Below, in pieces: positions 1 to 6,018 of a stretch of DNA of 64,000 bases; the first letter of the stretch is position 1, and each line of letters starts with the position of its first letter. Source of the DNA: Flexistipes sp. (lineage in GTDB: Bacteria > Chrysiogenota > Deferribacteres > Deferribacterales > Flexistipitaceae). The position numbers and the translations under genes are program-made. The DNA lies in assembly GCF_036172515.1 (NCBI RefSeq), contig NZ_JAXKVW010000002.1, forward strand, positions 1 through 64,000, written 5' to 3'. The notes beneath the pieces are model-generated. The model saw nothing but the letters and a program-made list of their open reading frames with translations. It had not been told where the DNA came from and searched no databases.

Positions 1-599
1 TATTAATACCGAAAGGCATTAGTAGCAGTAATAAAAATGTTTATATAAATATTGGGGTGGTTTTACTACTTTTTTTCAGTTTATTTGTTGTGGTTCGTAA
101 TTATTATTATGATGAAAAAATTTACAATGATATTAAACTTGTGAAACAATTTGGTGTTACTGACAATTTTATTCAGAATGTTAATGAAATGGAAGAAAAA
201 AACAAATTTATATATTCATATGCAAATAAAGATCTTGTGTATTATGCAACATATAACAAAGACGATGACATAGCAAAAATGCTTGAAGAGAATGTCCAGG
301 ATGCTTTAAAATTTCAAAAATCACACTTAACATATTATTCCAAAGCATGGAATATGATTTATAGTACAGATAACTTTCTATCTGATTATGATGGCATTGT
401 TGATACAATTAAAAAAGGCATAGATTTAAAACCTGACTATGAGAAGTTATGGACGCTATTGCATTATGTAAATATGAAAAAAGCTTCTGAGGTAACTGGA
501 AAGCCAATTGAGAATTTTCTTTTATCTGAAGAAGATAGAAAAAATCTTTTAGATAAAATGCAGAAAACTATGGAGGCAATTAAAGAAGGCAAAAAATAA
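1..599 (+). CDS. C-terminal part of a membrane protein, possibly O-antigen ligase/pilin glycosyltransferase-like (5' end outside window)
   Basis: The frame ending at 599 is open back to the left edge, so the GTG at 57 is probably internal and the gene is cut by the window. The visible part has one strongly hydrophobic segment (GVVLLLFFSLFVVV, encoded at about 54-95) followed by a hydrophilic, mostly helical tail of about 165 residues rich in Lys, Asp and Tyr. A last membrane helix followed by a helical soluble tail is the usual ending of Wzy/WaaL/PglL-type oligosaccharide ligases. A type IV pilin follows 280 bp downstream, and ligases of this class (TfpO/PglL) often lie beside the pilin they glycosylate. 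No ligase motif is in the visible part, so the function is inference from shape and neighbour. Confidence 0.5.
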   Translation, partial: LIPKGISSSNKNVYINIGVVLLLFFSLFVVVRNYYYDEKIYNDIKLVKQFGVTDNFIQNVNEMEEKNKFIYSYANKDLVYYATYNKDDDIAKMLEENVQDALKFQKSHLTYYSKAWNMIYSTDNFLSDYDGIVDTIKKGIDLKPDYEKLWTLLHYVNMKKASEVTGKPIENFLLSEEDRKNLLDKMQKTMEAIKEGKK

Positions 600-878
600 G
601 TGTTAGTGGAAATAGAGACAGATGAATAATACTTAACAAAAAAAATTCCTCAACGAGGTAGGGAAAACTTTTTCCCAAAAATAGGGAATTTCCACTTGCA
701 AAAAAAATGCTTCAGAATGTTCAACACTCATGGGGGCGGAAACGATGCAATCTCTCTTTTTTTGTTATTTTTGATTGTCACAACGTAATATTTGATTTCA
801 CAGAATAGCTGAGTTTTTATTTTTTGAAACTGATATAATTAAATAGGCTTCTTTTTATTTTACTAAAGCAGGTGACTT
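600..878. other. Intergenic region between membrane-protein tail and pilin
   Basis: No gene is seen. A small hairpin (GGGAAA / TTTCCC around 660-675) may end the upstream transcript. Positions about 741-785 are a worn fragment of the 140-bp MITE family found intact at 47846 and 60362 (shared GCAATCTCTCTTTTT core). The pilin -10 element lies at 831-839. Confidence 0.5.
831..839 (+). promoter_or_regulatory. Extended -10 element for the pilin
   Basis: TGATATAAT matches an extended -10 (TGnTATAAT) exactly, 40 bp before the pilin ATG. There is no convincing -35 and I see no sigma-54 -24/-12 element of the kind used by Geobacter pilA. Confidence 0.45.
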
Positions 879-1103
879 ATGAAAAAAGATACCATAATTA
901 TCGCTAACGAACGAGAGGGTTTTACACTGATTGAAGTGCTTACGGTTATTGTTATTATAGGCATTTTGGCAGTTATTGCTATTCCGCAGTTTGCAAGTTA
1001 CAGGATTAGCGCCTTTAATTCTGCAGCTCAAAGTGATTTGAGAAATGCCAAATCACACCTTGAGGCTTATTATTTAGAGCATGGAACGTATCCCGCCGAT
1101 TAA
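879..1103 (+). CDS. pilA: Short type IV pilin (PilA-N / e-pilin type)
   Basis: 74-residue prepilin. The 14-residue basic leader ends in Gly14, followed by Phe15-Thr-Leu-Ile-Glu19: the type III signal peptide cut by prepilin peptidase PilD, with the conserved Glu5. The mature protein is 60 residues, a single N-terminal helix with almost no globular head. Its length and layout match Geobacter PilA-N (about 61 residues) rather than ordinary 120-160 residue pilins. Aromatic residues fall at mature positions 1, 24, 27, 32, 50, 51 and 57; Geobacter PilA, from memory, has them at 1, 24, 27, 32, 51 and 57. Good Shine-Dalgarno (AGGTGA) before ATG 879. The 3' end is a plain TAA with no frame continuing behind it, so the short form looks genuine. 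No partner head gene (spc-like) is visible downstream. Confidence 0.9.
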   Translation: MKKDTIIIANEREGFTLIEVLTVIVIIGILAVIAIPQFASYRISAFNSAAQSDLRNAKSHLEAYYLEHGTYPAD

Positions 1104-1115
1104 AGTATGAACCAA

Positions 1116-1138
1116 TCTCACACTTACGAAGTGTGAGA
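1116..1138 (+). terminator. Hairpin after the pilin gene
   Basis: Perfect 10-bp stem (TCTCACACTT / AAGTGTGAGA) with a 3-nt loop, 12 bp after the pilin stop. It has no T-tract, so it may be an mRNA-stabilising 3' stem rather than a strict intrinsic terminator. Confidence 0.5.
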
Positions 1139-5920: not shown

Positions 5921-5946
5921 TTGGCGGGAGTGTGTAGGAATCGAAC
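5921..5946. repeat. attR-like direct repeat within tRNA-Sec 3' end
   Basis: Same 26 bp as 2076-2101. Here it is part of the intact tRNA gene, so the tRNA stays functional and the island lies on its 3' side. Confidence 0.85.
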
Positions 5947-6018
5947 CTACCTCCCGCCTAACAGGCGGGACAGTCGGCTTTGAAGGCCGCGGGGCGCACC
6001 AGCTGCCCAACCACTCCC
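5922..6018 (-). tRNA. selC: tRNA-Sec (anticodon UCA)
   Basis: 97 nt on the minus strand including an encoded CCA. It has a long GGGAGTGG acceptor side, a G-rich D arm, anticodon TCA (complement of 5981-5983) in the loop CTTCAAA, a long variable arm formed by CCCGCCT/AGGCGGG, a T arm GTAGG TTCGATT CCTAC, and discriminator G. The long variable arm and extended acceptor with UCA anticodon are diagnostic of selenocysteine tRNA. The organism therefore should make selenoproteins, but selA, selB, selD and in-frame-UGA genes are not recognised in this window. The 3' end is an integration site; the 5' end abuts a MITE. Confidence 0.95.

Follow-up and report, generated by a model that had tools for sequence, protein, structure and literature searches.

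Gene content at the start of the contig

The window, i.e. the whole stretch of 64,000 nucleotides of Flexistipes sp. DNA that we analyzed, begins with the first base of contig C2 in a genome of 31 contigs. The short pilin gene encoded there (pilA-N2, hereafter N2), its flanking elements and the related genes at the end of contig C1 are listed in Table 1.

Table 1. Features of the N2 gene (window coordinates) and of the related genes on contig C1 (L009 coordinates).
Feature	Position (strand)	Description	Evidence
Wzy_C-type O-antigen ligase / pilin-glycosylation-like gene, 3′ end	3..599 (+)	cut by contig start; putative 5′ part at C1 end	
Possible extended −10 element of the N2 promoter	831..839 (+)	TGATATAAT	pattern match
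Likely ribosome-binding site	870..875 (+)	AGGTGA	read from sequence
Orphan short prepilin PilA-N2, 74 aa	879..1103 (+)	leader 879-920, mature 921-1100, stop 1101-1103	translation, Pfam, structure matches, G015 orthologue
REP-type palindrome, hairpin	1116..1138 (+)	TCTCACACTTACGAAGTGTGAGA; 12 nt past N2 stop codon	palindrome counts, folding
pilA-N1	L009:8109-8345	contig C1	genome search with the window pilin
pilA-C, 114 aa	L009:8360-8704	signal-like start; 15 nt after pilA-N1	
Wzy_C O-antigen-ligase ORF	L009:8708-9814	runs off C1 end	Wzy_C PF04932, 59.2 bits

The N2 reading frame is translated without an internal stop into a prepilin of the form MKKDTIIIANEREG/FTLIEV..., in which a 14-residue leader with a terminal glycine is followed by F1-T-L-I-E5. 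The mature chain of 60 residues lacks a globular domain and contains seven aromatic residues (positions 1, 24, 27, 32, 50, 51 and 57; 11.7%), with a largest aromatic-free gap of 22. The glycine at position −1, the hydrophobic helix and E5 are those of a class III prepilin. N2 matches the Pfam N_methyl domain (PF07963) with 31 bits at a cut-off of 21.2, and its best match among solved structures is the 'Geopilin domain 1 protein' of 9egp (E 9.9e-24), followed by 7tgg (E 9.8e-22) and 2m7g/6vk9 (E 3.6e-19). In the structure-match alignment, the aromatic residues of the Geobacter chain fall on the aromatic positions of N2. Its Desulfuromonadales matches are 61–68% identical in 29 of the 30 fetched loci and 58% identical in the remaining one. 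Since the N_methyl match exceeds its cut-off and the structural matches are to geopilin domain 1, N2 is, judged by its sequence, a genuine PilA-N-type short pilin of the Geobacter family. The reading frame does not owe its existence to chance, because the homologue in a congener with a closed genome (G015, one contig of 2,526,590 bp) keeps both length and stop position, with TGA for the TAA of the window. The initial annotation had described a short, aromatic-rich pilin resembling Geobacter PilA-N, with the same mature length and aromatic positions, and our analysis confirms this description; the alignment and the calculation of aromatic density and gap that it had proposed yielded the geopilin matches and values given above. 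The aromatic content of N2 is ordinary, because 36 of 39 distinct short pilins (N2 counted in) fall within 10.5–16.9%; the paired pilin N1 of the same genome has 13.6%.

By itself, the extended −10 match says little about a promoter, because the window contains 10 matches to this pattern at 4.1 expected. The candidate element sits in the 78 nt upstream that differ from G015 at just 2 positions; it is absent from the list of a sigma-70 scan. Inspection by eye revealed no correctly spaced GG/GC pair of a sigma-54 promoter upstream of N2, and Rfam at gathering thresholds returned five tRNA genes in the whole window and nothing at the pilin. A selenocysteine tRNA is found at window positions 5926-6018 (−) with an Rfam score of 65.1 bits; the genome therefore probably makes selenoproteins. 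The REP hairpin behind N2 folds with −12.9 kcal/mol (z −4.9), and at ≤2 mismatches its palindrome occurs in 13 places here and in 10 in G015 compared to 0 for a reversed control. The palindrome also flanks a gene on contig C25 (G000:C25:823-1646, L177) that resembles REP-associated tyrosine transposases; with 66.7 bits it falls short of the NCBIfam threshold of 80, but it passes that of Pfam for Y1_Tnp. Y1-transposase-like genes (MTKPRSSFVSLEDTSWYHC..., recognized by eye from the sequence start only) further lie ~0.55 kb behind the pilin/PilA-C pair of two genomes (loci L123 and L128).

A second short pilin with a PilA-C neighbor

A search of the same genome with the window pilin identified N1 near the end of contig C1, 64% identical to N2 over residues 9-72 and followed by pilA-C and a ligase gene. 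A PilA-C profile built from nine Deferribacterota proteins, searched against a set that included the 80 loci of the genome-contig scan, detected PilA-C in 28 of the 29 Desulfuromonadales short-pilin loci L141-L169. A 13-row PilA-C profile matched the 'Geopilin domain 2 protein' chain 9egp_B (6e-21) as well as 7tgg (2.8e-16) and 6vk9 (7.1e-11). Because these are the geopilin domain 2 chains, the N1 gene and its neighbor are, by homology, a classical PilA-N/PilA-C pair. Each of the two genomes contains one clear PilA-C, located beside pilA-N1 (E 1e-29 here, next 0.06; 8.2e-25 in G015, next 0.03). No PilA-C is adjacent to N2 or to its G015 orthologue, so that neither forms part of a two-gene PilA-N/PilA-C unit.

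The arrangement of these genes can be followed without interruption in G015, where two sensor-type genes are succeeded by pilA-N1 and pilA-C (L122:10243-10849), a 609-aa ligase, N2, a lipoprotein-like gene and rpe; the genes upstream of pilA-N1 encode a PAS-domain and a HisKA/HATPase-domain protein. The G015 N2 comprises 74 aa and is 91% identical to the window pilin, to which the G015 N1 is 71% identical over the matched part. Because of the G015 gene order pilA-N1, pilA-C, ligase, N2, the window pilin is best described as an orphan paralogue. From this synteny we infer that C1 and C2 are adjacent; their ends do not overlap. If the two contigs abut, the distance between the two pilin matches would be 2,546 nt, compared with 2,512 nt in G015. 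The frame of the ligase fragment at the beginning of the window is open from base 3 to its stop; it has no Pfam match of its own and resembles residues 460-586 of the G015 ligase weakly in BLASTP (23% over 140 aa, E 3e-4), the full G015 gene matching Wzy_C (PF04932) with 54.1 bits. In a third Flexistipes genome (88% complete) neither short pilin was found at E <= 1e-8, and N2 is thus present in two of the three Flexistipes genomes examined. Between N2 and rpe, the window additionally encodes, among other genes, a Phd/YefM antitoxin-like and PIN-domain toxin-like pair (1399-2030); no Phd/PIN pair is listed at this place in G015.

Conservation of N2 and of its neighbors

The DNA of this genome and of G015 is 94.8% identical over the sensor-type gene stretch and 98.3% identical over the genes before it. 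The mature part of N1 is strongly diverged between both genomes (dS 0.34, dN 0.14), the PilA-C proteins are both detected by the profile yet cannot be aligned meaningfully by BLASTP, and the ligases align over only 99 aa (35% identity) besides the 140-aa stretch mentioned above. The pilA-N1/pilA-C/ligase segment as a whole (L009:8109-9815 versus L122:10243-12694) is very divergent despite 95–98% identical upstream DNA. We read this segment as a possible pilin cassette that is exchanged or evolves fast, comparable to the combinations of pilin alleles and accessory genes known from elsewhere.

The mature part of N2, on the other hand, is identical in 58 of 60 residues between the two genomes, without an indel and with a dN/dS of 0.19. 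Only two of its five nucleotide changes are non-synonymous, whereas the synonymous rate in rpe or in the PAS gene would predict 13.7–14.5. Over the N2 block of 345 nt, 16 differences were counted, which are distributed over the upstream stretch (2/78 nt), the leader (7/42), the mature part (5/180), the stop codon (1) and the downstream stretch (1/42). Hence, it is the leader that differs most (7/42 nt versus 9/303 elsewhere in the block; Fisher p 0.0012). The non-coding flanks, however, resemble each other as closely as the mature coding sequences do (3/120 versus 5/180), so that selection could be mimicked by a recent exchange or by locally slow substitution. The block ends on its 3′ side at the REP palindrome in both genomes, and in G015 a palindrome adjoins its 5′ side, too.

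Core helix, leader and phylogenetic position of N2

Five residues of the N2 core helix (V6, T8, I10, V11 and V18) are absent from 60 other short pilins, in which positions 10 and 11 are invariant; this comparison leaves out the upstream copy of locus L192 and the second pilins of the genomes G013 and G014. The L192 copy has a threonine at position 10. The five changes are not all unique to N2: of the second pilins found in two further Deferribacterota genomes, one carries I10 together with V18 and the other T8. The second, diverged short pilins of G014 (L124:5520-5900, −) and G013 (L127:4884-5421, −) each have a PilA-C-like ORF behind them, apparently with frame breaks; these genomes belong to another Deferribacterota family. 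Membership of N2 in their lineage is unsupported by the 58-column tree, which has few columns. The leader of N2 carries a net charge of 0 in the window and of +2 in G015, and the residue before the cleavage glycine is glutamate in the window and valine in G015 as compared to lysine in 36 of 36 other listed leaders. Since the leader is poorly conserved and uncharged overall in the window, weak processing of N2 is possible.

In the 58-column tree, N1 and N2 group together with a support of 92/59, and N2 joins the G015 N1 with 96/81. A 60-column tree with other rows (including L042) again places N2 with the G015 N1 (88/81), and this genome's N1 is not placed with N2. The stem of N2 measures 0.84 (60-column tree) or 0.41 (58-column tree) changes per column, its tips 0.017–0.031. 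For this combination of long stem and short tips we favor a duplication within the lineage that would have been followed by rapid change and subsequent constancy.

The same data bear on whether N2 is a relic, i.e. an ancient pilA-N whose PilA-C disappeared during cassette exchange and which is now decaying, too recently for stop codons to have appeared. The missing partner gene, the diverged leader with glutamate or valine for lysine, the conserved non-coding flanks, which point to a whole block that is slow to change, and the failure to find N2 in the third member of the genus are all in line with decay. The mature part, however, has been kept nearly identical, without an indel and with its stop retained as TAA or TGA; non-synonymous changes are far below the neutral expectation taken from two nearby genes, and the long stem with short tips fits a new constraint better than decay. 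We thus regard a relic as unlikely, while still giving it appreciable weight.

That N2 is a type II secretion pseudopilin, or else a conventional minor pilin without relation to PilA-N, hardly deserves credit. Its top NCBIfam match is indeed GspG (5.9e-13), and the FTLIEVL motif is common in pseudopilins, but N2 reaches only 49 bits against the GspG cut-off of 88.85 (TIGR01710) and 14.3 bits against the T2SSG cut-off of 21. A separate GspG with a T2SSG domain (132.9 bits) is encoded in another cluster, and both the identity of N2 to N1 and their grouping in the 58-column tree speak against this reading. A role as membrane signal instead of filament subunit, for instance as a pilin that is read by a PilS-type sensor kinase, appears very improbable as well. 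PilS senses PilA, PAS and HisKA/HATPase genes precede pilA-N1, and the N2 changes fall among the first 18 transmembrane-helix residues; nothing, however, marks the two sensor-type genes as PilS orthologues, and N2 keeps E5 and F1, which are required for assembly.

PilA-C partners among short pilins

A PilA-C gene is found next door in 55 of 63 short pilins, while seven lack it and one (L195) lies on a contig that ends 129 nt further on. The census script, which called a PilA-C match within 300 nt downstream, yielded 53; L158, whose candidate includes one unread base and was missed by the profile, and L201, whose candidate lies inside a longer overlapping ORF that does match, were added by eye. 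The 63 comprise 12 pilins from Deferribacterota loci, 31 pilins from L141-L169 (29 of 30 loci, L170 being long) and 20 from 20 chosen stretches, and remain from 64 rows after L169:1046 (15 aa) was dropped as an artefact. The sample is non-random, as the 20 stretches were chosen to include second copies with frames under 130 aa; some rows are near-identical. It omits several single short copies, L196 (which has no row), the second G014 pilin (L124) and the copy located upstream in L192. N2 accounts for two of the seven partnerless pilins; the others are the tandem copies situated upstream in L143, L162 and L191 and those in L193 and L194. L192 holds one more tandem copy without PilA-C outside the 63. 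Partnerless extra PilA-N copies are thus recurrent in Desulfuromonadales genomes with a paired copy, and N2 is assigned to this minor class.

A proposed role for N2

We propose that N2 is a second, diverged PilA-N and probably (with a likelihood of roughly 0.6) an accessory or alternative subunit of the N1 pilus. N2 would have arisen by duplication from a pilA-N1-like gene, would then have changed quickly and stayed near-constant while pilA-N1, pilA-C and the ligase gene were exchanged or diverged fast. The prepilin would probably be cleaved by a putative prepilin peptidase of this genome, and the type IV pilus machinery could insert N2 into the same pilus, where it may borrow the PilA-C of pilA-N1 or stand as a head-less subunit. 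With a possible extended −10 element upstream and the REP hairpin behind its stop, N2 may be transcribed alone. Type IV pili are plausibly made by this organism, because contig C22 encodes a PilM-like protein (26.9 bits, cut-off 27), a secretin, a PilC-type T2SSF protein and a PilB-type T2SSE protein with an MshEN domain. PMC3236037 describes F. sinusarabici as non-motile.

According to a report cited by Shu et al. (PMC5174107), the PilA-C protein GSU1497 is essential for the stability of PilA, and SPC of Geobacter has been employed to stabilize pilin (PMC10232502). This leaves three outcomes for a PilA-N that has no partner of its own: it borrows one, it dispenses with one, or it fails. The second of these outcomes would correspond to N2 as a head-less pilin whose altered core helix permits a PilA-C-free bare-helix filament, separate from the exchangeable N1/PilA-C pilus, for which we see little probability. 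A bare-helix filament is the architecture once proposed for e-pili.

Conductivity and cytochromes

The initial annotation had interpreted the pilin as a candidate building block of conductive pili. In this view, N2 would be the major, head-less pilin, and the pilus would conduct via stacking of aromatic side chains. Pilins of Deferribacterota reportedly worked when expressed in Geobacter, a result ascribed to Walker et al. (2018, ISME J). N2 does agree with Geobacter PilA-N in its mature length and in the placement of its aromatic residues. The statement of the initial annotation that no separate head-domain gene follows holds directly downstream of N2, but a PilA-N/PilA-C pair is located ~2.5 kb upstream according to the G015 synteny, across the contig break. 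The multihaem cytochromes it had suggested looking for elsewhere in the genome are present. The CXXCH pattern occurs 191 times in forward and 125 times in reverse orientation compared to 66 and 82 in a reversed control, and among the matches listed are one protein each with 12 CXXCH motifs (exceeding the ExtM cut-off), with 8 (a relative of hydroxylamine oxidoreductase) and with 4 (lipoprotein-like), together with an incomplete frame that passes the cut-offs of both ExtN and ExtO. ExtM/ExtN-type cytochrome genes lie on contig C8.

Pilin-based conduction itself is contested, with PMC9207759 still arguing for PilA e-pili and PMC12954529 against them. The latter source attributes the 3-nm 'e-pilus' to DNA; it reports that solved Geobacter pili contain as much PilA-N as PilA-C and that they conduct poorly. 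The 'e-pilin' genes of Deferribacterota have been discussed before (PMC6896113, PMC13186404), and the former notes that one iron-reducing Deferribacter and one that does not reduce iron have them in common (PMC6896113). As the same genome possesses another short PilA-N that does have PilA-C as its neighbor, as N2 deviates from the family in core helix and leader and as its aromatic density is ordinary, we consider a conductive pilus made of N2 improbable. The reading as a stand-alone wire is thus unsupported, N2 being a diverged spare copy downstream of the usual pilin and head-protein gene.

At the heart of the dispute about pilin-based wires is whether PilA-N needs PilA-C to work. Being partnerless, altered in its core helix and near-constant in two genomes whose neighboring genes differ, N2 offers a clean test of the need for PilA-C. 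Length and aromatic positions do not suffice to call an 'e-pilin', as the partnered N1 has the same pattern, and experiments on 'the Flexistipes pilin' must state which of the two genes was used.

Comparison with known systems

Shu et al. 2016 (PMC5174107) had already included Flexistipes and Deferribacter in their list of truncated pilins; a second Flexistipes pilin found no mention in the open-licence papers searched. N2 shares with Geobacter PilA-N (9egp, 7tgg, 2m7g, 6vk9) the mature length of ~60, the class III site, E5 and the aromatic residues at positions 1, 24, 27, 32, 51 and 57. It differs in that no PilA-C is adjacent, in V6, T8, I10, V11 and V18 of the core helix and in a leader without lysine before the cleavage glycine. 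The Flexistipes N1/PilA-C pair resides at the same locus, its N1 being 64% (this genome) and 71% (G015) identical to the window pilin over the matched part, but unlike N2 it has its PilA-C partner, a basic leader and strong divergence between the two genomes. N1 with its PilA-C is the combination seen in the solved Geobacter pili (PMC12954529), which leaves N2 as a pilus-forming head-less pilin unsupported. The extra PilA-N copies of Desulfuromonadales resemble N2 in that a PilA-C of their own is absent and the same genome also has a paired copy. They occur dispersed (L193, L194) or in tandem (L143:1926-2177, L162:1036-1242, L191:1986-2198, L192:2007-2330); unlike N2, the tandem copies are placed directly upstream of the pair and not behind a ligase gene, and their core helices differ from that of N2.
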